From: a virus
IMG/VR virus record: IMGVR_UViG_3300021373_001696
Coordinates: 1 to 39,848 of that record
Reading direction: 5' to 3' (one strand)
Length of the DNA: 39,848 nt
A program made the position numbers and the translations under genes. The notes under the pieces were generated by a model, which did not search any database, had not been told where the DNA came from, and saw only the letters and a list, made by a program, of their open reading frames with translations. Below are positions 7,129-30,290 of this stretch, in pieces. The number at the start of each line of letters is the position of its first letter. Position 1 is the stretch's first letter.

Positions 7129-8547
7129 ATGAGTGCTATAAGCATTGCTAATTCGGGTGTTGGAGCAGCTACTACGCCAGCTAACTTGGCAGCTACGCTG
7201 AAGACCGACCCCTCAAAGTACGTCTCCATTGGAGACCTTATCGACGTTACCAAGCCCGACAACAGGGATCTCTTGGTGAACACCTACGGTGACCAAGGTA
7301 TCACTGGCTTTCTTCAACTGACTGGAGCTACCCGCTCTGGCGGTACCGCTGACGAAGTTCAGTACTGGGAGGAGGGCCGTCTGCACAAGACTGTCACCGC
7401 TTCTTTGGCCGCTGATGGTGTTGATGGACAGGGAACCCTGACCACGACCGACTCCCTACGTGCTAATGACGTTCTGCTTACCCAAGCTGGCGACAGGCTG
7501 GTGGTCATCAACCCGACCTCCGCTGTCGCTAATAACGTCAAGACCATGGACGGAACGGCTGTGACTGTAATCGGGGCTGGATCTGAACAGGAGATGGCGA
7601 TCATCGGTAACGTTTACGCTCAGGGTACGGGTCAGCCCGATGAGTTCTACCAGACGGAAGTCGTCAAGCGTGTCAACCCGTACTTCATCACCAAGGAGTC
7701 CTTCCGCGTGACTGGTTCTCAGGCCACGAACATCGGCTGGATCAACCTCGGTGGAGGTGAGTACCGTTGGTACGTGAAGGGCGAGATGGACGTTCGCAAG
7801 CGTTTCATGAATCAGAGGGAGATGATGATGCTTCTCGGTCAGAACCCGAAGAGCGTTGACGCTGATCACGCTGACTACGCAGACGGTAGTCCTGATTTGA
7901 CTCTGACCGATGGCTCCGCCGACCTTGGTTCTATCGCTGGATCCGAGGGTTACTTCCAGGCTATTTCTCGTCGTGGTATCACGACCACGGGTAGCTTCGG
8001 TGACGGTGCTGGCTTTGCAGACATCGACGAGCTGATCTTCGCTCTCGACAAGCAGGGTGCTCCTCAAGAGTACGCTATGTATGTTGACACGGCCACGTCG
8101 TTGGCTATCGACGACATGCTTGCTGCTGGTATCGCTACGCAGACCACCGCTGGTCTTCCTGGTCAGTTCGGAGCCTTCCAAAACAGCGCTGACATGGCTG
8201 TCAAGCTGGGCTTCAAGAGCTTCACCAGAGGTAGCTACACCTTCCACAAGCACGGTTGGAAGTTGCTGAGCGATCCTACTTTGCTCGGTGCCTTCGACAC
8301 TAAGCCGTTTAAAGGTGCTATGGTTCCGCTTCGCACGGTGGCTGATGCCAAGTCTGGCAATCACTCCCCTGCATTGGAGATGAACTATAAGGAAGTTAAC
8401 GGTTACAGCCGTGAGCTCGATCACTGGATGGAAGGTGGTGGCGTCCTTGGTCACGCTACGAACGATGTGGACGAAGCTAAGTTCCACTATCGTTCTGAGT
8501 GCAACCTGATCACTCGCGCTGCTAACCAGCACGTCTTGCTGACTTGA
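7129..8547 (+). CDS. Major capsid protein
   Basis: 472 residues. It lies directly after the scaffold-like gene and uses a visibly different codon set (C-ending codons, CGT/CGC for Arg, GGT for Gly), the mark of the most abundant protein. The C-terminal third carries capsid-like features: HKHGWKLLSDPTLLGAF, a conserved GAMVPLRT strand, and YRSECNLITRAANQHVL at the end, reminiscent of HK97-fold major capsid proteins of Bacteroidetes podoviruses and crAss-like phages. It has a CAA-rich leader and is followed by a stable hairpin, which fits independent high expression. The fold is inferred; the capsid role is well supported by context. Confidence 0.75.
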   Translation: MSAISIANSGVGAATTPANLAATLKTDPSKYVSIGDLIDVTKPDNRDLLVNTYGDQGITGFLQLTGATRSGGTADEVQYWEEGRLHKTVTASLAADGVDGQGTLTTTDSLRANDVLLTQAGDRLVVINPTSAVANNVKTMDGTAVTVIGAGSEQEMAIIGNVYAQGTGQPDEFYQTEVVKRVNPYFITKESFRVTGSQATNIGWINLGGGEYRWYVKGEMDVRKRFMNQREMMMLLGQNPKSVDADHADYADGSPDLTLTDGSADLGSIAGSEGYFQAISRRGITTTGSFGDGAGFADIDELIFALDKQGAPQEYAMYVDTATSLAIDDMLAAGIATQTTAGLPGQFGAFQNSADMAVKLGFKSFTRGSYTFHKHGWKLLSDPTLLGAFDTKPFKGAMVPLRTVADAKSGNHSPALEMNYKEVNGYSRELDHWMEGGGVLGHATNDVDEAKFHYRSECNLITRAANQHVLLT

Positions 8548-10703: not shown

Positions 10704-11527
10704 TGTCTAGGAACTACATACCCCTTAATCAAGTCGTAAATGACTTCGTAGTAACTCTTGACACAGACGATTACGCAAGCTACGCTCCTGATACCACTAT
10801 TAGGGCTTTTGCTCTTCGGGGAATTAGAGAGATGGGGTTTGATATGCTAAAGGTTATCAGATCCCTTAAACTGGCTGTTTCTGCTAACGGAACAATAGAC
10901 TTGCCTGACGACTACGTGGACTGGACTAAGGTGGGTGTTGTAGGGTCTGACGGTCTGGTATATGTACTTGGGGAAAACAAAAACATCAACCAATCTCAAA
11001 AATATTCTACTTCTGGTGGATACTTTTACGACACTGACGGTGACGGGTTGTACGATAGAGAAGACAGTAAGAGCCCTACGAATAGCGGATCTCCGATGGT
11101 GGACGACGGAATCTCTGAGGGTATGAACTCATACATCTTTAGAAACTTCGTCCATGAAAACAATCACGGCAGGCTGTACGGAATAGGTGGGGGTCACTAC
11201 TATGAGGAGTTTAGGGTGAATATGGACCAAAACAGGATAGAGTTAAAGTCTAATAGGGACATCAACGAGGTGGTTATTGAGTACGTTGCTGACGAGGCAA
11301 GGTCAACAAACCCCAGGGTTCATGTTTACGCCGAGGAAGCTCTTAGATCCTACATTTACTATAAGCTCATAGAGCGTAAGTCAGCGGTTCCTGCTAATGA
11401 GAAGGCTAGGGCTAGGCAAGAGTACTACAACGAAAGGCGCAAGGCTAACGCTCGTATGAAGTCCTTCACGAAAGAAGAGTTGCTCAAGACTATTCGTAAG
11501 AACTTTAAGCAAGCACCTAAGCGCTAA
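10703..11527 (+). CDS. Head-tail ring/adaptor protein 2
   Basis: 274 residues. The N-terminal helical part has ALRGIREMGFDMLKVIRSLK then IDLPDDYVDWTKVGVV, the pattern of the gp11-like/ring protein family in short-tailed Bacteroidetes phages. A C-terminal helical half includes EALRSYIYYKLIERKSAVP and a basic tail. A central insert (about residues 100-140) has an EF-hand-like DTDGDGLYDRED segment, a thrombospondin type 3-like calcium-binding pattern. It is coupled by TAATG-type overlaps to both neighbours and likely assembles between portal and tail nozzle. Confidence 0.65.
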   Translation: MSRNYIPLNQVVNDFVVTLDTDDYASYAPDTTIRAFALRGIREMGFDMLKVIRSLKLAVSANGTIDLPDDYVDWTKVGVVGSDGLVYVLGENKNINQSQKYSTSGGYFYDTDGDGLYDREDSKSPTNSGSPMVDDGISEGMNSYIFRNFVHENNHGRLYGIGGGHYYEEFRVNMDQNRIELKSNRDINEVVIEYVADEARSTNPRVHVYAEEALRSYIYYKLIERKSAVPANEKARARQEYYNERRKANARMKSFTKEELLKTIRKNFKQAPKR

Positions 11528-14500
11528 TGGCTATCGATAAGACTATCCCGAACAGACTCCAAGCAGACGCTGACCAGAGGCTTGTACGCCCTGAAGTCGG
11601 GGAGATGCTTGATGCTCAGAACGTGACTATGGCAGAGGGTGGAGGCAGTTCTTCTGGCGTCATCAAGAACGTCAGGGGTACTATTGCTGGTGAGCCTCTT
11701 ACTGCTGCAGACAGGATCGCAGACGATGATGCGGTAAGGGTTATCGGCAGCGTGTCTGATCCTCAGCGGGGGTTCATATACTGGTTTGTTGCTGATGTAG
11801 GCGGAAATAGTCAAGACGCTATATATCAGTACAATACGTCAGACGATACTTACAGGGTTGTTTTCAAGGACTCTCGACTAAATTTTGATCATAACGGTTT
11901 TGTAAAAGCAGATATAGTTAACGCAGCTTTTCAGCAAGATGGCATTGTTCAATCCATACTATATTTTACTGACAACAATAACCCACCAAAGAAGATAAAC
12001 GTAGACAGGGCCATAGCTGGAGATTATGATCGTCCTGCTAATGTTGGGTCTATAGGATACGACAGAATGCTTGACAGGATGATTGAGTGTGTTAGACGCC
12101 CACCAATTAGGAATGTAGATTTCTTTTTTGAGTCTGACGAAAACTTTAAGAGTAACAACTTTATAAGAGATACCTTTCAGTTCTCAATTCAATACATCTA
12201 CAAGGATGGAGAAGAGTCGGCTATGTCTTCTTATTCTAAACTCGCGTTCCCTGACATAGTAAATAGTTACGGGGTAGAGGACGGATCTGTAGGGTATAGC
12301 GTGTACACACAAAACGTGTGCGTTATAGACACTAAGTGGTCTAGTGATACATCCGATACTCGAAGACATTATCACGACGTAAAAAAAATAAGGCTTCTTG
12401 CAAGAAACGGAAACGAAGGTGTATTCTTTATCATTGATGAGTTCGATCCAAATGAGAATCTGTACAGAAACATCCTCGAAGAAAACTTTACCGTGTACAA
12501 CGCCTCAAGTGGGCTTTACAGATTTTACAACGATGGAAATTACACTTTTGTATCTAGTGACCTTGTAAATAAGCTGTACGACAATGTCCCGTTTGTGGCG
12601 GCGGGACAGGCTGTGGCTGGAAACAGATTGATGTACAGTAACTACACTGAGGGTAGGCCGAGTCATGACCCAGGGGCTAATATGACCGTGTCTTATGCTG
12701 GTCCAGGATCAATAAATTCATTTAAGGTTTCTACACCAGTAACAGAAACTGGTTTTGGTGATGTTTCTGTAGATTTCTTAGGTGCTGGGGCATTTACTCC
12801 TGGTCAAATTATTCCAGCTGGATCTAAAACAACGATAGAATTCCCGTTTAGACCAACTGGAAACGTTAGCATGCTTAGCGAGTACATGTTTGAAACGTTT
12901 TTTGTTTTGGCAAATAATTTTAATCAAAGCATCCGTGTAGGCTTTGCAAATTCTGCAGACTCTCAAGCCTCATACGTAAAAGTTTATCCAGAAGGATACT
13001 CTCAAAATGCAGGAGACATAGGTCTGTTCCTTACGTTCAGTGTTACTGTAACAAACATTTCAGATATAAGCGTTGCTGATTTGGTATCTCTTTTTGCAGA
13101 CGCGATGTCTGAAGAAGAGACATCTCTTTCTAGTAAATTTCAAGTTTCTCCGACTGATTGCGAAGGCACTGTTTTAAGTGTAGATGGGGCCAACAACCCG
13201 TTCTCTGTCGGGGACCAAGTAACATTTTCTAGCGGGACATCTATAACAGCGAAATACTCTTTCTCGGAGACAGACACTTCAGCACCTACAACGCTTGTTA
13301 TAAAACCGAGGTTGGTGAACTACTACCCGTCTTTAGGCAATGAAATCACCGTATCTGGAAATAACATCTTGCCAGCAGGTAGCCTTAATGATCCTGCAAA
13401 CTCAACAAACGCAACAGATAAAGCTAGTGCTTCCTACAGCTGGGCAGCAAACTACACGGTCGATACGGAAAATACCCCAGCCTTTGTTCGGGCCCTATCA
13501 AGCACTTCTTTTGCTTCAAACTCGTCGTTTAAGATGGGGGCATCTCATGAGTTTGGGGTTGTTTACTATGACGACGCAAATAGATCTTCTTTCGTAAATA
13601 AAATTGGATCCGTGTATGTCGATCACGTATCTGAAAGATCTTCTGGAGAAGAAGGCGCTGCTGGCGTTACATTTTCGTTCTCAAACAATATTCCGACTTG
13701 GGCAAACTCCTTTCAGATTGTATATACTGGCAACTCAAGTTGGCAAGATGTTCAAACATACACTACTGGAAGGGGGTATTACGTTTCTCAGACTTCGGCG
13801 GCACAGATTACCAATCCAGTATTGACAGACAAGAGGATCTACGTTTCCTTAAAGACTCTTGATTTGTTTTCCAAGCAAAAGTCAGCGAATAGGGACTACT
13901 CGTTTACAAAGGGCGATAAATTAAGAATCGTTAGTTACGACTCAGAAACTGGGGCTGGAGACAATGTTGCGACTTCTGATCCAGTTATCGTTTACCCTTC
14001 AGCAAACGACGGGTCTCCAATAGAGTTTGATGTTGTTGGTGTGGTCGCTCTTACGGAAGCCTCTAATGGTCATCCAGTAGAGATTGAATTGAATACAAAC
14101 AACCTTCACAATCAGCACCATACTGCTGATGATCAAACTCAATTCGAGGGGACGTTTCTTATTCTAGAAGCAACTCAGGTGGTCAATCAGGCTGAAAGGT
14201 CTGACGGAACATCTGGAAGCATAAAGTACCCTGGGTTTGACTGGTACTCAATAAGCGCTACTGCATATCCAGATGGTACTGCAAGCCCAAACTTAAATCA
14301 CTGGGGAAAAAGGTGTGTCGTAGAAATATTGACGCCAAAAAAGAATGTATCCGAGAAAGTCTACTATGAGATAGGAGATAAAAGACTTGCTAGATCACCT
14401 AGACCTGGTGATACGTTCACGACAAACCACGGGCCAAACTTTACTCTTTTTAGTGGCGACGTGCACTACAGAACTGTGTCGGCAAAGACGCCATATAGAA

Positions 14501-15984
14501 ATTCGTCGGGGCAGTGGAATTGGGATCTTCCAAAAGACTGGAGATACGAAGCTATATTCATGGAATCTAAATCCGTGTCTGATATATTTAATTCAGAAGA
14601 TTGGGACAGAGGACGACCGCACGCAGCGTTTGAGAGCGCCGCAACTGTCCGCCGATACAACGGGATTACATACAGTGATGCCTATGCCGAGGACGTAGCA
14701 AACCTTTCACTATCATCATTCAACGGCAGTCTCGCTAACTTCTTCAGCCTGGAGTCCGCTAACGGGGCGTGCAACTACATAGATACGTTTAGAGACGGGT
14801 ACTTGCTTGCCTTCCAGGAAAATAGGGTTTCTAGGGTAGGGATAAACAAAGACATCATCACCACCCCAGCGGCAGGACAGATCCCGACCTTAACAACACA
14901 AGTACTTGGGGAGCCTGTATACTATCTAGGCGACTTTGGGTGCGGGGATAACCCTGAGTCTGTTCTTATCCGCGATGGCAATGCTTTCTTTGTGGATACG
15001 TCAAGGAAGAAGCTGGTTAGGCTCACTGCGGAGGGTTTGTCTCCAATCTCTGAGAACGGAGTAGACTCTATGTTCAAGACCAACCTAGACTCATTTACAG
15101 AACAAGGGGGGACACGTATTGTCAGCGGCTATGACCCAGAGGACAATCAATACTATGTAACCCTAAGAGAGGCTGGTGCGTTTACTGGGTTTACTCTGGG
15201 GTACAATATTTCTGCAGGGGTGTGGCAGAGCAGGTATACGTTCTATCCAGACATGTACGCTGATCAAAACGGAACCATGTACTCTGCTTACTACAATAAC
15301 CCTGTTGGCGACGACAACGCAGAGGTGTTTCATCACCACACAAACGAAACAGACTATAATACTTTCTACGGCTCGTTTGGAGACTCTCTAGTAAAGGTAG
15401 TGAGCAACGCTAATCCAAGCATGGTGAAGGTGTTCAACTCAATTTCGCTAGAGGGGAATAGCGCAAACTGGACCGCCAACCCCGTGGCAACCGACCTTAG
15501 TAGTCTTGCTCAGTCAAAACAGTTTGTAGAGAAAGAGGGGAGCTACTACTCTGAATTTACCAGAGACACAAACGGGACCAAGCACACAACTGGTATTGGT
15601 AGGGTGGCCTCCCTGGACTCTGGGGGAAACAGGATTAAGTTTGTAAACAGAGTAAATAGGAATCCAATTCCATACGGAAGTAACATTAGGCTTATATCTG
15701 CTGGAGCCTACGACAATATAGGGTCTCTTGAAGAAGATGTTACCTTTGTTAAATTTGTAGACTCCTACACCATTGAGGTCGCTGGAACCATAAACCTTCT
15801 GCTTAACGGGCTTGTCGGCGGTGACCTTGTTGCCATATCTGAGTCCACTGTAAACGGAGACCCAGTACGGGGTCATTGGGCAGAAATAACACTAACTAAT
15901 AACCAAGCTACACCTTTTGAGTTGTATTGTGTAAACACGCACATCGTACAATCACATCAAGACCACTCGTTAGGTCAGCAATAA
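11527..15984 (+). CDS. Tail nozzle/muzzle-like protein
   Basis: 1485 residues. The N-terminus reads NRLQADADQRLVRPEVGEML then DAQNVTMAEGG, followed by VRGT and a VIGSVSDPQRGFIYWFVAD strand pattern, as in the large tail 'stabilisation'/muzzle proteins of crAss-like and related podoviruses and analogous to T7 gp12. The C-terminal part contains propeller-like strands such as RIVSGYDPEDNQYYVTL (from about residue 1197). The middle is Ser/Thr/Asn-rich beta structure and may be a host-variable domain. It probably forms the tail tube extension through which DNA leaves. It follows two ring genes without a gap and is followed by a new promoter. Confidence 0.7.
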   Translation: MAIDKTIPNRLQADADQRLVRPEVGEMLDAQNVTMAEGGGSSSGVIKNVRGTIAGEPLTAADRIADDDAVRVIGSVSDPQRGFIYWFVADVGGNSQDAIYQYNTSDDTYRVVFKDSRLNFDHNGFVKADIVNAAFQQDGIVQSILYFTDNNNPPKKINVDRAIAGDYDRPANVGSIGYDRMLDRMIECVRRPPIRNVDFFFESDENFKSNNFIRDTFQFSIQYIYKDGEESAMSSYSKLAFPDIVNSYGVEDGSVGYSVYTQNVCVIDTKWSSDTSDTRRHYHDVKKIRLLARNGNEGVFFIIDEFDPNENLYRNILEENFTVYNASSGLYRFYNDGNYTFVSSDLVNKLYDNVPFVAAGQAVAGNRLMYSNYTEGRPSHDPGANMTVSYAGPGSINSFKVSTPVTETGFGDVSVDFLGAGAFTPGQIIPAGSKTTIEFPFRPTGNVSMLSEYMFETFFVLANNFNQSIRVGFANSADSQASYVKVYPEGYSQNAGDIGLFLTFSVTVTNISDISVADLVSLFADAMSEEETSLSSKFQVSPTDCEGTVLSVDGANNPFSVGDQVTFSSGTSITAKYSFSETDTSAPTTLVIKPRLVNYYPSLGNEITVSGNNILPAGSLNDPANSTNATDKASASYSWAANYTVDTENTPAFVRALSSTSFASNSSFKMGASHEFGVVYYDDANRSSFVNKIGSVYVDHVSERSSGEEGAAGVTFSFSNNIPTWANSFQIVYTGNSSWQDVQTYTTGRGYYVSQTSAAQITNPVLTDKRIYVSLKTLDLFSKQKSANRDYSFTKGDKLRIVSYDSETGAGDNVATSDPVIVYPSANDGSPIEFDVVGVVALTEASNGHPVEIELNTNNLHNQHHTADDQTQFEGTFLILEATQVVNQAERSDGTSGSIKYPGFDWYSISATAYPDGTASPNLNHWGKRCVVEILTPKKNVSEKVYYEIGDKRLARSPRPGDTFTTNHGPNFTLFSGDVHYRTVSAKTPYRNSSGQWNWDLPKDWRYEAIFMESKSVSDIFNSEDWDRGRPHAAFESAATVRRYNGITYSDAYAEDVANLSLSSFNGSLANFFSLESANGACNYIDTFRDGYLLAFQENRVSRVGINKDIITTPAAGQIPTLTTQVLGEPVYYLGDFGCGDNPESVLIRDGNAFFVDTSRKKLVRLTAEGLSPISENGVDSMFKTNLDSFTEQGGTRIVSGYDPEDNQYYVTLREAGAFTGFTLGYNISAGVWQSRYTFYPDMYADQNGTMYSAYYNNPVGDDNAEVFHHHTNETDYNTFYGSFGDSLVKVVSNANPSMVKVFNSISLEGNSANWTANPVATDLSSLAQSKQFVEKEGSYYSEFTRDTNGTKHTTGIGRVASLDSGGNRIKFVNRVNRNPIPYGSNIRLISAGAYDNIGSLEEDVTFVKFVDSYTIEVAGTINLLLNGLVGGDLVAISESTVNGDPVRGHWAEITLTNNQATPFELYCVNTHIVQSHQDHSLGQQ

Positions 15985-18267: not shown

Positions 18268-21200
18268 ATGGGAGAAGACTATAACGCTGTTATTGAAGAC
18301 TTCAGGTCTAGAGGAAAGTCCGATGAATATATAGCCAACGTTCTAATGTACGACCCCAAGTACAAATTAGATCCAAACAAGGCAAGGGCGCTTTTAAATC
18401 TAGACTCAAAAAAAAAAGAACAAGGAGGAAACCCGTTTACTATTTCGTCGTCTATTTCTTCGGATATCGTCTTGGCTTCACCTTCGGAGTTGACAGAGAG
18501 GACACAAAACCCCGTATCTGAAGCTTTATCACCCTCTATCAAAGAAGAGGACCTCTCCCCTCAGATTAAGCAGTGGAGAAACTACAACATTTCAGAAGGT
18601 CTTCATAGTGAGGTCAACATGTATGACACTGAAGACATGCAAAGTGCGTATGTCACTGACGCTGTCGATTGGTCTCTCGAAAATAACGTATTTGACGGGG
18701 AGCTCACCAGGGAAGATATACTGGGTGGCAATGATCAAAAAGACATTACTGCGGAGCAGACGAAAAACATCAGGTCAGCGATGTCGGCTTACGATGATCA
18801 CTTGAAGTCACAAGGAGACATAGACATTACTGAAAAGCAGATTTCAAAAAGAGAAATGGACGCTAAGTCGCTGTCCATTATAAAGACGTACTCTAAGAAG
18901 ATGGAGGAGGACTACAAGTCCACCCATAAGACTTTGATGTCTCAGAATGAAGAGTATAGAAAAGCTATTGAAGAAGCAGAAGAGAAGTTTAAGAAAGGAG
19001 AGCTGACTGAAAGAGGTTATCGAACTGCCACAAACAGGGCGTTTCAAATTCACGCTGAAGACTACTGGAAGGAAAGGTTTAATGAATACACGGAAGAGAT
19101 TGTTAATTCTCTTCCAGAAGACCTAAGAGATGACGGAAGCTTTCTTGAGGACCTGTCAGAAGACATATACGAAAAGTCAAACAGGAGCCTAAGGCTTGAC
19201 CTTGACGGAGACAACGTATATAATGAGGGGATACCAGTTTTAAGTCAGGTTGGCGACTTTCTGTTGGGCACTGCAGCAACACTAGTTGACATTGCAGGAC
19301 CCACTTTGGCTGTTGCTGGTGGAAGCGGTGTTCCTGCCATTCCAACCAGTATCGGCAGGAGGATGCTTTATGATGCTCAAAAAGAACTTTCAGAATATCT
19401 GAGGAGCAACATAACAGATTACCAGGACTACGAATATTTTTCTGTGGACGAGGACGAGGGCCTGTTTAATCACATTGCTCACGGACTGGGGGACGTTACT
19501 CGCGCTACGAGTCAGGTTATACCTTACGCTGCGCTCGCTTACGGTGGTCCTGTGGGACTCAGTATACTAGGTGTTACGGGAGCTATAAATACGTTTTCAG
19601 ACAGCTATTATTCAGATGTAGACAGGGTTGCAGAGGGTCTTGATCCTGTTTTTGACCCCGACAGCTCTCTAGACAATACGTCAAGATTGGGGATGAGCGC
19701 ATCTATCGGTGCAATACAGGCGTATGGTGGAAAAATACTTGGCGGAATTGCAGGAAGGGCTGTAGGACAAGCTGGCTCAAGCGCAGTAACAAACAGTATA
19801 GTAAGAGGTTTAATGGGGGGAGCAGGTAAGGCCGCTACAAAGACAAGGGCTCTTAAAGCGTATCTTCTCGCTCAAGGCATCGACGCTGTCGGCGAAGGAA
19901 TCGAGGAGGTCGTAGAAAACGCGGTGCAGACGGCCTTTGAATCTGGCCTTGGAGACAGCGATGTAACTTGGAACGAGTTTGTTTCTGAAACACAGTATGC
20001 GTTCGCCGAGGGGATTAAAGGAAGTGCTGGTATAGGTGGTGCTGGATTGGCTCTTGGTAGGGGGGCTAGATCTGGAAACGCCATACTTAACGGCGATGTG
20101 TCGCTCATAACAGGGCCTCAAGCGGCTACTCATTCAGTTGCCGACCCCAGTTCTTCTGAAGTGGAAGTCGATGGTGAATCTCCATTGATACAAGGCAAAG
20201 ACAAAGAGTCTTATGAAAAAAGCTCAGGAGAAATTGAGAAGCACAGAAGAGAAAACGAAAAAAGGTATAGGGTCATAAAACTCAGGTATCCAGAGGCGTT
20301 CGATAAGATAGCCCGAATGGACGCTATGTTGGCCTCTAAAGCAAATAAAGCTGGCGCAATATTCTCTAAGTACGGAGAGGGGGATGCCGTTTCTGAAGAA
20401 GATCAGGCGGCACTGACTCAAATTGAAAAGGAGTTTAAACAACTTATAGAACAAAGAGCAAAGCTGTATAACTCATTTAAGGGCGAATCACTCGAACTAA
20501 CCAATCAAGAGGCAAGAAACGTAGACAAAGCAAGAATAAACAGGAAGGTTAAGGACATTGATGATGAGGTAAGACTCCTAGAAGAGTCCCTTGCTGAGCA
20601 AGATGAACTTTTAGGCACTACCGCTGCCGATCCTGACGTAAGAAACCAAATAGAGTCAGACCTAGAAAGAGCTAAGGCAAAAAGAGAAAGGGTACAAGAG
20701 CTTTCTAATGAAGTAGATAGGGCTACGGCTGAGGTAGAAAGCGCTGCTGATCAGATGGGAGGGGAGTCAACTGACGCATCAGCGGCAGAGATGAAAGCAG
20801 CAGAAGAAGCTAAAGCAGTAGCTGAGCAAGAACTGCTTAACTATCTGGGTGTTAAGGGAGAAGGTCTTGGATTATCTACAGAAAAAGCAGATGACCAGAA
20901 GGCTCCAGTAAGCAGAAAGGGCCAGGTTGAAAGCCACTCTAAGAACGGAGGAAGCACCTTCTCTCTTGACGGCAAAGACATGTCAGGCCAGCCAAAAGCA
21001 AGCGTAAGCATATTCCCCGAAAGGACTAAGCTTGTAGAAGGGGAAAGTGTAACAGAAGAAGACATTGATTCTTTCGTTGAAGAAAACAAAGACTTGTTCG
21101 AAGGCAACGAAGATGTGCTTACTGTAGGTACGTGGTATGATTCTGAATCAGGAAAAACATATATAGATGTTATCACTGTAACAGACAAAGAGTCAGCCGT

Positions 21201-24200
21201 AGAGCTTGGAAGACAGTACAATCAAAAGGCTGTATGGGATCTGGAGTTTTCTAAAGAAATTGACACTGAGGGTACAGGGGAGGCTCAAGAAGGAGCTAAG
21301 CCTGAGGCGGAAAGGGTAGCTGACATAAGGTCCATAATAGGAAAGGAGGTTGAAGCCGAGGCTGAGGCTGAGGCCGAAGCCAAAGACCAAGCGCCCGAAC
21401 AAACCACTGAGGAAGCGCCTAAAGAAACAGAAGAGAGGGGAATTGTGGGTCAGTTTACGGATCACACCCCATCCAAAGACGGTACGTTTGGGGTGATCCC
21501 TAAAGGCTCTCTTAGCGTTGGCATGGCTAGGTTCCTTAACGGGAAGGTGGTGAGGACTATATCCAATATGATTGCTGATGGACGTCCTGTTAAGATAAGA
21601 ATTCACGACACGGTTGAATCAGCAAATAAAGCCTGGGGCAGAGGCTTAAAGGAAGGAGAGGGTGTTCGAGGGTTTAAGGCAACACAAGAGAACGGAGAGA
21701 TTGTAATACACGTAAATCCTCAGTATATAGCTGAGACATCAGAAAACTCAACGAAAGCGTTTGAGGCCGTTATTCTTGAAGAGCTTCAGCACGGTATGCT
21801 CGGCCCGACAATAAACACTCTTTTTAAGACAGACAGGAAGGCCGCAGAAAAACTCCTCAGCGACCTTATGGCTCTTGCGCCAAAAGAAGTGCGGGAGCTC
21901 GCGGAAAGAAAAAGAAGGCGTTACAGGGAGTATTACAAGAGAGAAACAAAAAAGTCGGATGATGAGATTGAAATGATCGCTCACGAAGAGGCGGTATTTG
22001 AAATAACATCTAGGCTGGCTCCGATGCTTAACGGCATGGAGGTAAAAGCCAAAAAGAATCTCTTGGATAAGATCCGAGTGATCTTTAATCAAATGTACAA
22101 GGCCATAAACGCGCCTAAACAATTCACTATCACGGATGTAACAAGTGCAGAACAACTTGTTCAGGCCATGGGGCTCATGTCCAGGTATGGTACAGGAATA
22201 AAACTTTCTGCGGATGGAAAGGTCGAAAGTGGGACAGAATCAGACAGGGCATCGATCAAAGGCAAAAGACCCGTAAGAGTTGTGTCGCTGCCAGAAGACG
22301 GGAAGTTTACTGTCTCATACAATATGCCTACGTATGGAAGAGGTGCAACAGATGGGATTATGGTGGGGAGTAGAGTTCAGGAGCAAGAGTTCAACGGAAA
22401 ATGGCACTTTATAAACTGGTGGAAAAGGGCTACAAGAATGGGTGAGCTGCCGTATGGAAGTTGGCAGATTGATCTTGGTAACGGACCGCAGCCTTTTGAC
22501 GCAGATGCAATGAAGAAGTGGAGTATGTCTCCTCCAAAAAGGAGAAAGACGTATTCGGAGCAAAGAAGGGAAGAAAGAGACGCCCTTTTTGATGAGTCTA
22601 ATGCTATTAGAGACCTACTAATAAATGAATTTGGTAGGCTGCATAATCCAATGCAGAAAAAACTAAAGAGCGTAACAACAGAGCTTTTCGGAGAGGAGTT
22701 GGTAAAAGATGTCATGCGCCAGAGCTCAGACGGAAAAAGTATTAACACCCTTGATCTCACTATAGAGCAACTCTCTCAGATTAGACTAAAGATAGAAGAG
22801 GACTTTGGGCTGAGAAAGCCTGAGGACGGGGATCAAATGTCTAGCGACAGGGCATCACTTGATATTAACAAAGAGGCGCACAAAAAGGGAGATCCGATAC
22901 AAAGGGCTAAAACCATTGGAGAACTAGCAAAAAAAGTTTCGTGCGGAGGGGTTGTATTCACCTGTAATATATCCGAGGCGCAGATGATTAGAAACGATCT
23001 TATGACACAGATCTCTAAGTCTGTTTCTGGCGCTGATCGGAAGCCCTCAAGCATTGCGGCAGACATACTCCCCCTAATACAGTTTCACCTGGGTGATAGA
23101 CTAAGTCGTACTGGCAAGGATATAAGAACGATAGATCAAGAAATAAAAGGGGTTTACGACAAGGTTTCCGATTATATGGAAAGTGTTCATGGGGACATTC
23201 TACCAGAAAACCACAGGGATCACTTTGGAATCTTTGCTGCTATACTCGCCGTGACTTCTAACGGAGCTACGGCAGAGTCCAATTTAGATGTAGCTATAAG
23301 AATATACGATTCATACATATACGGTATATCTCAGGGGTTGAAGCCATCTGAGGCTGTAAGTAAGACTGTCCTTGACGGAATAGAAGCCGCCAATCCAGAG
23401 ATTATAATTAATAAGGGGGACATAAACAAACAAAGGGCAGGATCTATAAGAGCGTCCCTTGAGCGGGTTTTTGCTGATGCTGACAGATACTATAAGGACG
23501 GCAAGTTTGATTCCGAGGCTATGGCCAAGAGGTACGGAAGAAAGAAAACAAACAAAGACGCCATTCAATCTAGATTTATACTTGGTGCCTCTGACGCGGC
23601 TAAGACTGGTGAGCATGCCGCTGGAATGATGGGGAGGGGTGAGCGAGCATACTTGGAGAGTGAGCGATGGGTGAGGAGATTTATGCACGTGTTTCAAGGT
23701 AAGTTCACTCCTCTTTCTGGAGATACCGTGATAAGACCTGAAGCCATAAGCGCTGCCGAGTCTCTTGCTGAAGAGGCTGGAGTAACAGATCAGGAAATCA
23801 ATAAGATCCTGGAAGAAAAGTATGGTGTAAAAGAAGGGGACTATGGGTTTACACACAGGGGTGCACGCGCTGTTGCAGCCATGAAAGCTATAAGAGCCAG
23901 AGGTAAAGGTAAGTTTTCTAAGAGGGCAAGTAAAGCTACATGGACTCTCCTAGGAAGGGACAGCATTTTTGACGATGGCGGCTCTAACCTTGAAGTAAAC
24001 GATGCTCTTTCTAGAAAGACCATGGAAGAGCTGGTTAAAATGCTGAACAGAACCACTGGTAGAGGGGAGCCTAAGTGGAATGCCTACTCTTTGCAGCAAT
24101 CTATCTGGGAAATAATGCAGGAAGAAATGGGGGCGTACAGAGACGGAGAGTACGCTTTGGTTTCTTACGGAGATCTTATCGAATCCGCTATAGAAAGGGT

Positions 24201-27200
24201 AAGTGAGGAAGGTCTTGGTTCTGTGAACATGGAGATAGAGATGGGGGAGGGAGACGTGATCAAGGGTATTAATAACTCAGGCGATCTTTCTAGCGACCGT
24301 GCCTCTATGCTTTTTGACCCTATTGATCTCGGACCAGGTAAAGACGTAGTAAACTCTAATGAATCCCCACTCTATAGAGCTAGGAGTATTGAGGAGGTAG
24401 GAATGGTTAAAGTCGGTCCAGACAACTACAGGCCAATGACCGATAAAATGGTATCAGAAGCCCTGAAGACCGACAAGCGCTCTGTTCAAATAATGAACGA
24501 GAGAAACGAGATTGAAGAAGGGAAAAAGGTAGCTGTTAGACTAAACCTAAACGTTAAAAAGAACACTGGGGTCCCAGTACAGACGGTTCACGATAAGTCT
24601 GCTACAGGAAAGGCCCTAAGGTACTCTGGCGCTGTAACCCTGAATAACGTAGAACTTGCTGTAAATCAAGGAGCTAGAGAAAAGATTGTGACCTTCCAGG
24701 AAAATAAATTTCCTATGGCGGCGGTCCAAGGAGAGTTTGTTTCAGACGGGGTTTCCGTTAGCGACCTTGACGGAGTTAAGGCTACGTTTAATCCGTTCAG
24801 GGAACACTTGTTTGTGGACGCTTCAGGAAGGGCCATCAAGTCTGCTGAACAGGCTACTGTAATTGGCAACACTGTTCTGCTCAGGGGTAAGATTACATAC
24901 TTTAGCATGAACGACCCTATCCTTCAGAGGGGTAAGGTCGAATCCCCTAAGGGCAAAGCCAAGCGACTACTGAGGGGCGATAAGTATGAACAGGCCCTGA
25001 AAAGATTCAAGTCTTATGCCGAGGGTGCGCTGGGCATGGAGTTTAAGAACAGAGCAGAGCTGGAGCTTGCTTACGATGGTATGCAAGTGGGATCTAAAGT
25101 TGCCCTTGCGGAATCTGAAGTCGCAGACAACATGGCTAACGCGGCTGACAGAGCAAGTATATCTAGCTACCTCGACAAGCAAAAGATGAGGCAAGCAGCA
25201 AGAAAGCAAGCCAACACATTCTTAAATACCACGAGGCAAGCAATTTTAGACAACCCAGAGAATTACATATCTCCTCAAAACATAGGTAAAATAAAAAATC
25301 AGCTTCAAGACGTTACCGACCAAGAGTTGATTGAGTACCTAACTGACGAATCAATAGGGCGGCTGTCACAGAAAAATGATGACATAGGGGTTCTTGCTGG
25401 ATCTGAGTTGATACGAAGGGCTGTAGCTAGGGGAGAGATGGACAGAGTGCCATCTATTGTAGCTGAGTTAGCTGCCGTAGGCACCACGGCGGGTAGGATA
25501 CTTCGTCACTTCAGGGAACTTAAATCTAGCGGACCTGCTGGTCTTGCGGCTATTATTGAATCTGCGGTATCTAACAACGGAAACTCTCTGTCTGAACAGC
25601 AGAAGATTGAACTTCAAAAGATTACTTCTGACCTTTTTGGTCAGCAAGCTAAAGTGGAGGATTTGATGCGAAGGGCTGTTGGGGGAGAGGAGGTAGACGC
25701 AGAGCTCAAGGAGGCCGTAGAGGCCATGAAAAACACTGAGCGTAAACTCGATACGTTTGCAAACAACTACATAGAGAAAGACTGGGGGTCTCTGTTTGGG
25801 CAACTTGTTCAGGGCAACCTGCTTACCACTATGTCTCAGGTGTTTAACGTAGCTGCAAACATGGTCAACGCCGCTGGTCATATTGCTGTTGACTTGTTCT
25901 CGCTTCCTTTTGAGGCGGCAATGACAAAAATTGGCACAGCGATGGGTAAAGACATTCAGCCTAGAAGAAGGCCAAGTTTGATGGCTTACGTATACGGGGT
26001 GAGAAAGTTTGGATTAGGGTTTGTAGAAGCAGCAGATCAGGTTGTCACTGGCCAAGATAAGGAGCTGTCGGAATGGAGGGTATCCAGGGGCCTTGCTCCG
26101 TTTAGATCACTAAAGGCTGCTTTTCAAAAGGATCTTCCTTTAGGGCCTGACGGTCAGGGAAGTCTTGGCCAACGCCGAAAGCTTTTTGTTCAGGGTACTC
26201 TTGGGATTCCAGCTGAGACAATGTTTAGGTTGCTGTCTCTTGGAGACATACCGTTCAGAAGGTTTGCCGAAGGAATAGACCTGTATCAAGCTGGAAAGGC
26301 TATGGGACTAGAAGGAGAGTCTCTTAAAAGGTTCCTGAAGTACCCCACTAGAAAGGAACTTGAAAGGGCAAAGAGAGAGGGCAGGAAGCTTACCTTCCAA
26401 GAGGAAACTGCGGCAAGTAAAAACGTAAACAGCATAGTAAGCGCACTGGAAGGTATTGTGGCGAGAGGAGTAGAGCCGTTAGGAATCAACGGAGACAGCT
26501 TCGCAAAAGCCTTGTTTAAAGTGATTCTTCCTTTCCGATCTACACCAGCTAACATCCTGTATGAGACGTTTACCTGGGTTAATCCTTATGTAGGAACTGT
26601 ACGAATGGCCTCCGAACTGAAGAGAGGTGATGTCGAAGAGAGTTCAAAAACTCTTGCTAAAATGATGATCGGTTCGGTCACAATGGAGGCAGCAATAATG
26701 CTTATTAGCGAAGGAATTATATCTGGACCAGTACAGTGGGACGAAGACGAGGAGAAGAATATGGCTTACGACATTTTCCCGCCAAGCAGTGTAAACGTAT
26801 CGGCCTTGAGGAGACTGATGGAAGGAGGGGACACGGCTCACCAAGTAGACGATTACTTTGTTAGGTATGACAAGCTCGGAATGATCGGGGCAATAATGTC
26901 TACTGCCGTCCAGTCTGTTGACTCCGAATCAATAAAGGAAAGGAACTACAGTTCTCCCGTTCAGTTTGCCGCTCACACCGTATCAGACTTCTTCGGGGCT
27001 GGTTCTATGTCGGCTATATCAGCCATGATGGAGCAAAGCTTTGTGCAAGGCCTAAACGGGTTCCTGAAGGTATTGATGGGAGATAACGTAGAAAGGGATC
27101 TGGAGAACTTCTTGACTACGATGTTCAAGGCAGGTAGCGCAGCACTCCTTCCGAATCAGTTGAATGCATTTTACAGGGCTGAAAGGGATTATCTCCCAGA

Positions 27201-27861
27201 CAGCAGAGTGACCAGGGATGTAGGTGAAGAAGGTGGAGCAATGGGCCTCGCTGAGAGGCTGTCTCATAAGTTCCTGTACACCATTAAAGACAGAACGTTT
27301 GGTCTTGCTGACTACCCCGTAAGAATAAACTGGAAAGGAGAGGAGATACAACAGACCCCACGTGGAGCGTCAGGTATAGGGTATCAGCTATTTGATGTTA
27401 CGAAGTCTAGGCAAGGAAGTGCAGACCCCCTCTCTAACGAGGTGTGGAGGTTGTACGAACAGACTGAGGACTTGACCAGCGTATGTGGGACACCTTCGTA
27501 TGCGTCCACTAGGAAGCTAAGCGTACCAAACATAACCTCCAAGAAGGACATTAGGATGGTGAAGGCGCTGGGAAGGGGGTATACCTGGATCGACGATGAA
27601 GAGTTTATGGCTGAGAGAATATATCTGTCTACAAGGCAGATAAACGAACTCATGAAAGTCTCTGGAAGAGCTAGGTATGAGGCCGCTATGAATCTTGTCG
27701 AAACAAAGGAATACAAAGAAGCTAACGACCAAGAGAAGGTAGAGATGCTTAACGAGGTAGCTGACGACTTTAACAGCGCAAAGGAGTACGGTCCTAATGG
27801 ATATAGAAGACACACAGTCCTTCTGTTTGACATGATACAGAAAATTTACGATGCCAGATAA
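18268..27861 (+). CDS. Giant polyvalent internal virion protein
   Basis: 3197 residues from ATG 18268 (a GTG one codon earlier is possible). Charged helical N-terminus; hydrophobic Gly/Ala-rich segments near residues 328-360, 417-445 and 578-605, as in membrane-penetrating ejection proteins; coiled coil about 650-880; an (EA)n stretch near 1029-1041. At 1080-1260 lies a metallopeptidase-like domain: a GEIVIHVNP strand, helix with EELQH (1171-1175) instead of HExxH, then HEEAVFE (1239-1245) as possible third ligand. Four (S/A)DRAS motifs (1325, 1526, 2009, 2293) divide the rest. Near 2752 a PFRSTPANI motif opens the hydrophobic C-terminal domain common to huge phage virion proteins. It is probably injected with the DNA. 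No lytic transglycosylase or RNA polymerase motif was found, though one could be hidden. Confidence 0.75.
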   Translation: MGEDYNAVIEDFRSRGKSDEYIANVLMYDPKYKLDPNKARALLNLDSKKKEQGGNPFTISSSISSDIVLASPSELTERTQNPVSEALSPSIKEEDLSPQIKQWRNYNISEGLHSEVNMYDTEDMQSAYVTDAVDWSLENNVFDGELTREDILGGNDQKDITAEQTKNIRSAMSAYDDHLKSQGDIDITEKQISKREMDAKSLSIIKTYSKKMEEDYKSTHKTLMSQNEEYRKAIEEAEEKFKKGELTERGYRTATNRAFQIHAEDYWKERFNEYTEEIVNSLPEDLRDDGSFLEDLSEDIYEKSNRSLRLDLDGDNVYNEGIPVLSQVGDFLLGTAATLVDIAGPTLAVAGGSGVPAIPTSIGRRMLYDAQKELSEYLRSNITDYQDYEYFSVDEDEGLFNHIAHGLGDVTRATSQVIPYAALAYGGPVGLSILGVTGAINTFSDSYYSDVDRVAEGLDPVFDPDSSLDNTSRLGMSASIGAIQAYGGKILGGIAGRAVGQAGSSAVTNSIVRGLMGGAGKAATKTRALKAYLLAQGIDAVGEGIEEVVENAVQTAFESGLGDSDVTWNEFVSETQYAFAEGIKGSAGIGGAGLALGRGARSGNAILNGDVSLITGPQAATHSVADPSSSEVEVDGESPLIQGKDKESYEKSSGEIEKHRRENEKRYRVIKLRYPEAFDKIARMDAMLASKANKAGAIFSKYGEGDAVSEEDQAALTQIEKEFKQLIEQRAKLYNSFKGESLELTNQEARNVDKARINRKVKDIDDEVRLLEESLAEQDELLGTTAADPDVRNQIESDLERAKAKRERVQELSNEVDRATAEVESAADQMGGESTDASAAEMKAAEEAKAVAEQELLNYLGVKGEGLGLSTEKADDQKAPVSRKGQVESHSKNGGSTFSLDGKDMSGQPKASVSIFPERTKLVEGESVTEEDIDSFVEENKDLFEGNEDVLTVGTWYDSESGKTYIDVITVTDKESAVELGRQYNQKAVWDLEFSKEIDTEGTGEAQEGAKPEAERVADIRSIIGKEVEAEAEAEAEAKDQAPEQTTEEAPKETEERGIVGQFTDHTPSKDGTFGVIPKGSLSVGMARFLNGKVVRTISNMIADGRPVKIRIHDTVESANKAWGRGLKEGEGVRGFKATQENGEIVIHVNPQYIAETSENSTKAFEAVILEELQHGMLGPTINTLFKTDRKAAEKLLSDLMALAPKEVRELAERKRRRYREYYKRETKKSDDEIEMIAHEEAVFEITSRLAPMLNGMEVKAKKNLLDKIRVIFNQMYKAINAPKQFTITDVTSAEQLVQAMGLMSRYGTGIKLSADGKVESGTESDRASIKGKRPVRVVSLPEDGKFTVSYNMPTYGRGATDGIMVGSRVQEQEFNGKWHFINWWKRATRMGELPYGSWQIDLGNGPQPFDADAMKKWSMSPPKRRKTYSEQRREERDALFDESNAIRDLLINEFGRLHNPMQKKLKSVTTELFGEELVKDVMRQSSDGKSINTLDLTIEQLSQIRLKIEEDFGLRKPEDGDQMSSDRASLDINKEAHKKGDPIQRAKTIGELAKKVSCGGVVFTCNISEAQMIRNDLMTQISKSVSGADRKPSSIAADILPLIQFHLGDRLSRTGKDIRTIDQEIKGVYDKVSDYMESVHGDILPENHRDHFGIFAAILAVTSNGATAESNLDVAIRIYDSYIYGISQGLKPSEAVSKTVLDGIEAANPEIIINKGDINKQRAGSIRASLERVFADADRYYKDGKFDSEAMAKRYGRKKTNKDAIQSRFILGASDAAKTGEHAAGMMGRGERAYLESERWVRRFMHVFQGKFTPLSGDTVIRPEAISAAESLAEEAGVTDQEINKILEEKYGVKEGDYGFTHRGARAVAAMKAIRARGKGKFSKRASKATWTLLGRDSIFDDGGSNLEVNDALSRKTMEELVKMLNRTTGRGEPKWNAYSLQQSIWEIMQEEMGAYRDGEYALVSYGDLIESAIERVSEEGLGSVNMEIEMGEGDVIKGINNSGDLSSDRASMLFDPIDLGPGKDVVNSNESPLYRARSIEEVGMVKVGPDNYRPMTDKMVSEALKTDKRSVQIMNERNEIEEGKKVAVRLNLNVKKNTGVPVQTVHDKSATGKALRYSGAVTLNNVELAVNQGAREKIVTFQENKFPMAAVQGEFVSDGVSVSDLDGVKATFNPFREHLFVDASGRAIKSAEQATVIGNTVLLRGKITYFSMNDPILQRGKVESPKGKAKRLLRGDKYEQALKRFKSYAEGALGMEFKNRAELELAYDGMQVGSKVALAESEVADNMANAADRASISSYLDKQKMRQAARKQANTFLNTTRQAILDNPENYISPQNIGKIKNQLQDVTDQELIEYLTDESIGRLSQKNDDIGVLAGSELIRRAVARGEMDRVPSIVAELAAVGTTAGRILRHFRELKSSGPAGLAAIIESAVSNNGNSLSEQQKIELQKITSDLFGQQAKVEDLMRRAVGGEEVDAELKEAVEAMKNTERKLDTFANNYIEKDWGSLFGQLVQGNLLTTMSQVFNVAANMVNAAGHIAVDLFSLPFEAAMTKIGTAMGKDIQPRRRPSLMAYVYGVRKFGLGFVEAADQVVTGQDKELSEWRVSRGLAPFRSLKAAFQKDLPLGPDGQGSLGQRRKLFVQGTLGIPAETMFRLLSLGDIPFRRFAEGIDLYQAGKAMGLEGESLKRFLKYPTRKELERAKREGRKLTFQEETAASKNVNSIVSALEGIVARGVEPLGINGDSFAKALFKVILPFRSTPANILYETFTWVNPYVGTVRMASELKRGDVEESSKTLAKMMIGSVTMEAAIMLISEGIISGPVQWDEDEEKNMAYDIFPPSSVNVSALRRLMEGGDTAHQVDDYFVRYDKLGMIGAIMSTAVQSVDSESIKERNYSSPVQFAAHTVSDFFGAGSMSAISAMMEQSFVQGLNGFLKVLMGDNVERDLENFLTTMFKAGSAALLPNQLNAFYRAERDYLPDSRVTRDVGEEGGAMGLAERLSHKFLYTIKDRTFGLADYPVRINWKGEEIQQTPRGASGIGYQLFDVTKSRQGSADPLSNEVWRLYEQTEDLTSVCGTPSYASTRKLSVPNITSKKDIRMVKALGRGYTWIDDEEFMAERIYLSTRQINELMKVSGRARYEAAMNLVETKEYKEANDQEKVEMLNEVADDFNSAKEYGPNGYRRHTVLLFDMIQKIYDAR

Positions 27862-28397: not shown

Positions 28398-30290
28398 TTA
28401 TCGGACGGGACATGCTCCTGTATCACAGTTGTCAATGTCTACCTCATCGAGTGAGATGCTGTCGATGCTTGTGATGGGCTTGACCCCTGCCTTCAACATC
28501 TCGTACTCTTCCTTGGTAATCTCTTCCATAGGAGCCTGATCGAAACCGTGGTCGCTATGAAGGAGGAAGGAAACAGACTTAGTATTGAAGTAGTTGTCGT
28601 GGAGCCACCAGCGGATACCCTCCAGCTCTTCCTTGCGGTAGTAGATGGTTACGCTAACGCTGTTGTCTGACCACTCCAGCTGGAGCCTCTTGATGACTTC
28701 AAGCTGATCGATAGCGGACATGTCGGTTCCGAACTTAGTGCCTTCAGGGAAGGAGCAAGGGAAGCTAACCACTACCGTTGAATGGTCTTCAGTCCCGTCA
28801 AAGTTCCGTACATATTCTACGTGGTACCCATGACTCCGAGCAACTGATGCAAGCTCACTATCTGCCGCCATTCGGATTCTTCGAATGTAATATTGGGAGT
28901 ATCCAGGGTGAGCCCCTGGTGTAACACCAGCAAGTAGAGACAACGTTCCAGAGGGTTTAACTGTAGTAAGCTTGATGGAATTAGGGAAACCATTTAGTTT
29001 AGAATATTCTTCGTCGTAAGCTCTAAGATACACATAAGCTTTGTCCAACCAATCTTTTTGCTCTTCTGTGGCCTGAAGGTATCCAGTAACTCCAATCCCC
29101 ATACGCATGTTCTTGTGAACGATGTCTTCTGTCTCCTTCAAGGAGCACGGGATAGCGAGGCTGTGCTTGTTCACCCTATACAGGTAGCGAAGCACCTTTC
29201 TCAACTCTTCATAGTTCTCTATGTTTGGGAGGTACACCTCAGCCAAGCAACAGGTCTCGAAGTTTGCCAGTGACTGCTCAGCACAGGGGTTGAAGCCCAT
29301 CACGTCAGGATCGGGGTACTCAGACTCACCCGTCCTCCCCATCTTACGGGAAGCCTCTAGGTTAATCAGTCCATATGGCTCTCCGTTACCTTTGTACCCA
29401 TCCCAGAACTCCTCAGGGAGGTCTTTGATATCGCTACAGATAACAGAGTTGTTAGACATAGCCCTCCAGTTCGGGATGTTACCGAGGTCCCAACGCTTTG
29501 CGCGTAGGAAATCGATGTCGTCATGATCGCCGAGTGCAATCTGAGCCGAGCGCCTGACGTTGCCAGCCACTACGATCTTACCCACAATATTCATAATATC
29601 GAGGCAGTCTACACTGGACAGCCTACGACCAGCCTTGGAGTTAAGGATTTTGTTTATCTCAATCATCCCCCAGACAAGGTCTTCGCTTCCGCTGGCTGTA
29701 CCGCCAAATCCTTTGATGGGCGCCCCCTTTGGTCGGATGAGGTGAGTAGCGAACGTGAAACCTTCTCCAGTTTCAAAGCTTGCCCTGAGCACCCGATCGA
29801 GGAGCTCTACCCATCCCTCACGAGAGTCAGGAACAATGAAGTCAGCATCGTTTCGGTCTGCGCGAGTGACATCCACCTTTGCTTTAACCTTTGGGAGCTG
29901 GTACACATGCTCACGCTGGATGTTGAACCCCACTCCGCTACCAAGCATAAGCATCTCAAACGCCCAAGTGAACGGACGGATGGGGTTGTCTACCACTACA
30001 AACGAACAGTTCTGCAACGAGGGGAGCCCAAGGCGATCCACTGTCTCAGTACCAAGTTGCCATAGGAATCTTCCAGCAACTGTTCCTTTGAGGTCGAGCA
30101 TGATGTTCCTCAACTCTTCTTTCTCGTCGTCTCGGAAGTTGCAACCAAGCTGGCTGTTACATGCCTCAACAACACGATTTACGGTGTCTGGCCACTCTTC
30201 TGTGCCGCCACCTTCGAGGGGTCTGGAGTACGTTCTTTTGAACGTGGGGTATCCCACCTCACCCCATGGAGTAAGTTTTTCTTTTGTCAT
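28398..30290 (-). CDS. nrdJ: Class II (adenosylcobalamin) ribonucleoside-triphosphate reductase
   Basis: 630 residues. It reduces ribonucleotides to deoxyribonucleotides using coenzyme B12. All catalytic residues of the monomeric RTPR type can be placed: C95 in LQNCSFV and C347 (redox pair), N334-P-C336-A-E338 (radical Cys and Glu), and the C-terminal relay pair C622/C627 in CDTGACPVR. The PSGTLSLLAGVTPGAHPG loop is typical. It is about 100 residues shorter than the Lactobacillus enzyme (739), with no ATP cone seen. It is the last gene of the leftward operon, 29 bp after the nuclease gene and before the terminator. The host must supply or salvage B12. Confidence 0.93.
   Translation of the reverse strand: MTKEKLTPWGEVGYPTFKRTYSRPLEGGGTEEWPDTVNRVVEACNSQLGCNFRDDEKEELRNIMLDLKGTVAGRFLWQLGTETVDRLGLPSLQNCSFVVVDNPIRPFTWAFEMLMLGSGVGFNIQREHVYQLPKVKAKVDVTRADRNDADFIVPDSREGWVELLDRVLRASFETGEGFTFATHLIRPKGAPIKGFGGTASGSEDLVWGMIEINKILNSKAGRRLSSVDCLDIMNIVGKIVVAGNVRRSAQIALGDHDDIDFLRAKRWDLGNIPNWRAMSNNSVICSDIKDLPEEFWDGYKGNGEPYGLINLEASRKMGRTGESEYPDPDVMGFNPCAEQSLANFETCCLAEVYLPNIENYEELRKVLRYLYRVNKHSLAIPCSLKETEDIVHKNMRMGIGVTGYLQATEEQKDWLDKAYVYLRAYDEEYSKLNGFPNSIKLTTVKPSGTLSLLAGVTPGAHPGYSQYYIRRIRMAADSELASVARSHGYHVEYVRNFDGTEDHSTVVVSFPCSFPEGTKFGTDMSAIDQLEVIKRLQLEWSDNSVSVTIYYRKEELEGIRWWLHDNYFNTKSVSFLLHSDHGFDQAPMEEITKEEYEMLKAGVKPITSIDSISLDEVDIDNCDTGACPVR

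Follow-up and report, generated by a model that had tools for sequence, protein, structure and literature searches.

Recurring, jointly re-spelled tags between the modules of a giant polyvalent-type phage protein: candidate cleavage sites of a polyprotein

A giant gene in a podovirus structural cluster

The window, by which we mean the whole stretch of DNA analysed, is a virus record of 39,848 bases. The genes of its structural cluster that are needed in what follows are these:

7129-8547: capsid-type virion protein, ~30% identical to proteins of Flavobacterium elemo, Maribacter Panino and Cellulophaga phages
11527..15984, plus strand: crAss-muzzle-like tail protein (PF25729, E 7.8e-10; phrog_14478, E 5.4e-114)
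18268..27861, plus strand: giant polyvalent-type protein of 3197 aa, encoded by the cluster's final long gene, which a holin-like gene follows directly

The cluster runs from the capsid-type protein through an SU10-adaptor-like protein, the crAss-muzzle-like protein and two unknown genes to the giant gene, which is translated without an internal stop, and the holin-like gene. The crAss-muzzle-like protein marks the structural cluster that holds the giant gene as that of a podovirus, and by the gene content of this cluster the phage is of podovirus type; to judge from the hosts of its relatives, its own host group is probably Bacteroidota, and for relatives, links through the major capsid protein indicate hosts among the Flavobacteriia. 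The gene lies inside the structural cluster, and in the related phage elemo a megaprotein carries the annotation of structural protein; the giant protein is a putative virion protein. Elsewhere in the window, a class II (B12-type) ribonucleotide reductase gene lies on the minus strand at 28398-30290, with a primase/helicase and a PDDEXK exonuclease-like gene beyond it, and the protein encoded at 2763-4310, which combines a concanavalin-A/laminin-G-like domain with similarity to the C-terminus of long virion proteins, is a possible receptor-binding protein.

Two traits of polyvalent proteins (Iyer et al., 2017) are found in the giant protein. It combines domains that occur on their own elsewhere: in mycobacteriophages the L5 gp82 domain (PF25735) forms a small protein by itself, and shorter open reading frames of 205 and 473 aa (L063 and L071) contain it too. 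Domains are also shuffled among its relatives, by swaps near aa 862-945 in the W family and by the gain and loss of modules in a second family described below.

Tags, modules and a zincin-like domain

Features within the giant protein, all on the plus strand, are the following:

21520..22182: zincin-like domain, aa 1085-1305, with EExxH at aa 1171-1175 (bases 21778-21792) and a further invariant E1241
22240..22257: tag 1, SDRASI, directly after the zincin-like domain; pLDDT <50, model residue 282
22258..22842: module between tags 1 and 2, aa 1331-1525, with a conserved FNGKWHFINWWK stretch
22843..22860: tag 2, SDRASL; pLDDT <50, model residue 483
22861..24291: module between tags 2 and 3, aa 1532-2008; aa ~1589-1982 resemble the AGOG DNA glycosylase / phage PUGT fold
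24292..24309: tag 3, SDRASM; pLDDT <50, model residue 966
24310..25143: module between tags 3 and 4, aa 2015-2292, holding a mycobacteriophage L5 gp82 family domain at aa 2082-2202
25144..25161: tag 4, ADRASI; pLDDT <50, second model, residue 235
25162..27858: C-terminal piece, aa 2299-3197, mostly helical, which together with the gp82-like domain is the best-conserved part

The motif (S/A)DRAS[ILM] occurs exactly four times in the 3197 residues, starting with its S or A at residues 1325, 1526, 2009 and 2293 (DRAS at 1326, 1527, 2010 and 2294); translation of the reading frame thus bears out the earlier note, which had listed the same four copies, residues and bases, each copy followed by I, L or M. 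Shuffling of the protein gave mean expectations of 0.09 for DRAS and 0.001 for the 6-mer, with maxima of two and one, respectively (2000 shuffles), and DRAS is absent from all other open reading frames above 150 aa on both strands of the window. All four copies differ in their codons, which rules out a DNA repeat as their origin. Two further RAS at aa 1741 and 1899, which bring the total in the window protein to six, were rejected as tags, having no D or E before the R, and the one at aa 1741 sits in a well-predicted helix (block pLDDT 90).

Two AlphaFold2 models were built with the relatives' alignments, one of aa 1045-2215 and one of aa 2060-3197, in which 16% and 27% of the residues, respectively, have a pLDDT below 50. 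All four tags lie in such low-confidence linkers, so that the location inside folded domains which would have spoken against a processing or linker role was not found; the model of aa 2060-3197 is itself weak (mean pLDDT 61.6), so the linker argument is weak for site 4. The remark that the sequence changes character at each tag is likewise borne out, since every tag sits in a low-confidence stretch and in a dip or at a border of conservation. The acidic and serine-rich lead-ins (QMSS, DLSS) that had also been proposed are not a common feature: the residues before the motif vary in relatives, with the exception of an E or D just before the R in about half of the instances.

As to what the tags separate, the resemblance of aa ~1589-1982 rests on VIA-align scores of Z 8.5 to an AGOG DNA glycosylase (7ou3) and 7.7 to a phage PUGT (8z2n) over 210-227 residues. 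This resemblance to a glycosylase or thymine-modification fold is suggestive only; the module between tags 2 and 3 could be an enzyme that modifies or repairs DNA and is delivered alongside it. The gp82-family domain is supported by PF25735 (E 6.3e-12) and phrog_586 (E 1.3e-9). The modules between tags 1 and 2 and between tags 2 and 3 had no tblastn match in phages, and the 1171-aa model gave no Foldseek match against the PDB at E 0.001; against viral models, the significant Foldseek matches include ART-PolyVal-like and other polyvalent phage proteins.

The zincin homologue ends ~20 residues before site 1. In hhalign it matches the HExxH zincin of L066 and its family over 152 columns (probability 98.6, E 6.5e-16), a family with weak M78/IrrE similarity, and is thus homologous over the core; where HExxH has its first His, EExxH has its first E, and the region of E1241, the candidate downstream Glu ligand, aligns with the NEE..xE stretch of the HExxH family. 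A PDB sequence search with the domain gave no match. Among the aligned relatives, E1171, E1172, H1175 and E1241 are invariant and E1245 nearly so, and all of them carry EExxH, in which Glu replaces the first zinc-binding His, instead of the catalytic HExxH; we therefore class the domain as a family homologue and not as an active zincin peptidase. Owing to this substitution it may be inactive or work otherwise; its invariance across proteins that are ~30% identical argues for some function. The suggestion that a protease-like neighbour makes autoprocessing worth testing thus holds insofar as a zincin homologue does adjoin site 1 and a second family has an intact HExxH, but the domain of the window protein itself has EExxH.

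Tags across related megaproteins

When viral contigs were scanned with the C-terminal part of the giant protein, 25 loci were obtained, and a profile scan added three full relatives (L039, L051 and L059). The resulting alignment comprises 26 giant proteins, in which the window protein is compared with 25 relatives (~30-76% identical); conservation is poor in the N-terminal two thirds and good in both the gp82-like domain and the C-terminal third. No relative of the giant protein was found in cultured phages, either by DNA or by tblastn of a long fragment, which returned gp82-like domains only, and 60 pattern matches in bacterial genomes included no true relative.

The four junctions are common to the relatives. 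At each, the flanking linkers vary in length and sequence and a short tag is kept, whose spelling is specific to the lineage and changes jointly at several junctions (DRAS/ERAS, ERAA, ERSA, GRAS, KAS, EMAS). In the nearer relatives the tag is mostly [DE]RA[SA], and ERAA is found at several junctions of L010, L015 and L024. In L009/L020, L023 and L016, three or all of the four junctions carry xRASxx[LIMV] or a form close to it; L021 has five copies of GRAS[ANS][KR][MIL], L011 and L017 have KAS at the first three junctions, L006 and L013 have ERSA at junctions 1 and 2, and L025 has EMAS at junctions 1, 3 and 4 plus a fourth copy. A recognisable tag is missing at some junctions of some relatives, for example at site 3 of L010 and L014. 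In the contig segments and structural proteins, no clear case of the tag in another protein was found.

No other 3-mer is as concentrated at the four junctions as RAS: of its 61 occurrences, 42 fall inside junction windows that make up 3.2% of the length, and in the distant proteins outside the W clade 26 of 39 lie at the four junctions (p 8e-30). The DNA encoding the tags varies freely, with AGA, AGG, CGA, CGT and CGG for R, TCN as well as AGT and AGC for S, and all four Ala codons in use, from which it follows that selection acts on the protein.

The concerted change was assessed by a test that presumes no motif. For each pair of different junctions the best ungapped 6-mer match was taken, within and between proteins, and the protein labels were permuted 5000 times. 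Junctions of the same protein resemble one another more than junctions of different proteins do (z 8.9, p 2e-4, the floor of 5000 permutations), and four offset control positions gave z values of -1.1 to 1.5. The result holds with one protein per clade (z 9.1) and with the W clade removed (z 6.6), and five shifted controls gave z -0.6 to 2.1. Since the alignment pairs only like junctions, similarity across junctions is not a product of the alignment. When 265 windows covering the whole protein were scanned in the same way, the eleven best were the four junctions. The next best, near aa 908 (z 4.3), was rejected as a fifth junction, because it lies in a domain-swap region where similarity follows domain type. 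In this region upstream of the zincin-like domain (aa 862-945, about 20850-21105), the relatives carry at least three alternative domains, one of them with an AMLTAENP stretch like the LLTAENP of an elemo protein annotated DUF3293. Taken as a whole, the test supports the view that the tag is a real, functional signal that would be recognised by something common to the sites.

A comparable arrangement recurs in a second megaprotein family (L066, L069, L080 and L081), which has the gp82-like domain in common with the window protein and carries EKAQ five to six times, downstream of an intact HEVMH zincin. Its first tag, TEK[NSPA]Q or KEK[NK]Q (overall TEK[NSPKA]Q or a near variant), stands directly after the zincin and before three different modules. 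Between EKAQ tags, whole modules come and go: L080, for example, has 123 aa between two of them that are missing from L081, and a 99-aa module between such tags in L069 is missing from L066. At homologous junctions L070 has NERQQ, NEREQ and NERLQ, again a concerted change (ERxQ versus EKxQ). In a third family, represented by L072, the gp82-like domain is flanked on either side by VGAAQ, which recurs at a point beyond it. No convincing recurring 4-mer tag was found in the megaproteins of elemo, Gundel_1, DC33 and ctEw122, and the tag design is therefore not universal. As a side observation, the Limnohabitans phage DC33 (L095, PQ492659.1), a circular record of 39 kb with a megaprotein gene of 9.4 kb, is filed under Inoviridae; given its likeness to the podovirus record ctEw122, this taxonomy line looks wrong.

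Cleavage, docking and other readings of the tags

The earlier note had offered processing sites or docking signals as readings of the motif. That the motif is a real signal, shared among relatives and changing jointly, has been established above; the choice between the two is one of inference. We consider it probable that the tags are sites at which a polyprotein is cleaved by a single cognate protease, for which the adjacent zincin is a plausible candidate, because they are repeated, confined to linkers and drift in concert, bracket exchangeable modules and start right after the zincin. The four tags would divide the giant virion-type protein into five pieces of about 1330, 200, 480, 285 and 900 aa. 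A single protease would read all of them, and slow drift of its specificity between phage lineages would re-spell the sites of one protein together. The likeliest reader would be the zincin-like domain immediately upstream of site 1, which could act in cis or on neighbouring copies, in the prohead or once the protein has been ejected into the host. All the pieces would thereby be freed, among them the L5 gp82 family protein, the DNA-glycosylase/PUGT-like one and the large helical C-terminal piece. As to the cutting itself, the bond concerned, the identity of the cutter and the timing, we infer them from the arrangement and evolution of the tags.

Viral polyproteins with an internal protease have several sites of one consensus between their modules, and these are expected to co-evolve with the protease. 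The giant protein agrees with them in the repetition of one recognition motif at inter-module linkers and in the co-variation of the sites within a protein, as if read by one reader; unlike them, it is a phage protein of virion type with a zincin-like candidate protease, and its module content varies among relatives. A cut between A and S like that of herpes assemblin was considered by analogy.

Zincin-driven autoprocessing of polyvalent proteins was predicted by Iyer et al. (2017; PMC5512222), whose passages on motifs, linkers and cleavage describe no recurrent cleavage-site tag in linkers and propose no sites. As described there, polyvalent proteins with an MPTase domain are likewise multidomain megaproteins with a zincin-like domain among enzyme-like or DNA-related modules; the window protein differs from them in its EExxH and its concertedly spelled tags. 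The same source describes the N4 virion RNA polymerase, which has an MPTase domain, as packaged uncut, and this counts against the cleavage reading. No such tags are described in the literature on polyvalent proteins, crAss cargo and phage polyproteins within our reach, which took in few subscription journals and preprints.

The main rival is that the tags are docking or packaging peptides for one partner, such as a scaffold, a portal-side protein, the capsid shell or an unfolding factor, with no bond being cut; several copies per protein would then improve loading or threading. One common partner would also give concerted re-spelling and would put the tags in exposed linkers, and capsid-targeting peptides are known in megaproteins: P1 DarB, a head-packaged megaprotein of 250 kDa believed to enter the host, needs no more than its N-terminal 30 residues for targeting (PMC9024508). 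That signal is, however, single and terminal, with repeated tags not reported there, whereas the tags described here stand between modules and bracket those exchanged as units. In both families, too, the tags begin immediately behind the zincin domain and follow downstream, and a clear copy of the tag was found in no further protein of the contig segments. On balance we regard docking as rather unlikely.

Second among the rivals is cutting by another protease, either a phage prohead protease or a host enzyme, with the EExxH domain dead or regulatory; to this we assign a minority share within the cleavage explanation. Prohead proteases (P1 Pro, SPN3US gp245, T4 gp21) offer a close parallel in that one protease makes several cuts at a short motif and Ser is common after the cut: SPN3US gp245 cuts after A-X-E, before S (PMC10052503), P1 gp23 is cut between E120 and S121 (PMC9024508), and P1 DarA is cut by the prohead protease according to the literature compared. 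The lack of the first His of HExxH in the window's domain also favours such a reader. These proteases, however, cut several head proteins, mostly removing N-terminal propeptides (PMC10052503), whereas the tag is confined to one protein, where it divides modules, and is absent from the other long reading frames, those of the remaining head proteins included. Pfam and PHROGs revealed no prohead protease within the window, although several head genes there had no match. The invariant E1171, E1172, H1175 and E1241 argue against decay of the domain, and the zincin is intact in the second family.

That the tags might be recombination seams for module exchange, functionless in the protein, is suggested by the gain and loss of modules exactly between the EKAQ tags of the second family, but this is very improbable and largely refuted by the codon data, as the DNA of the tags is not conserved among relatives (R as AGA/AGG/CGN, S as TCN/AGY, four Ala codons) or among the window's own four copies, and joint re-spelling at the protein level would not be expected of seams. 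A functionless, linker-like tetrapeptide recurring by chance or composition can practically be dismissed: Ser, Asp and Ala are common in linkers, yet the shuffles, the concentration of RAS in distant relatives at the same four junctions and the concerted test refute it.

Beyond the window protein, it is conceivable, though we hold it with some doubt, that at least two megaprotein families are plug-and-play polyproteins with lineage-private tags ([DE]RAS, GRAS, KAS and EMAS in one, EKxQ and ERxQ in the other) and a built-in zincin-like reader, which in one family would be a working EExxH variant, so that a payload would be gained or lost by being flanked with its own tag. Whether, where and by what the megaproteins injected by phages are divided has been a question since zincin autoprocessing was proposed in 2017. 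For two families the concerted tags predict exact cut sites and piece boundaries that can be tested, and a search for linker tags that are re-spelled together offers a route to such sites in other megaproteins. If cut, the tags would explain how a module can be swapped while those next to it stay undisturbed, and they would yield a series of protease/site pairs that differ in specificity; if the cleavage reading is true, phages make a self-dividing polyprotein.
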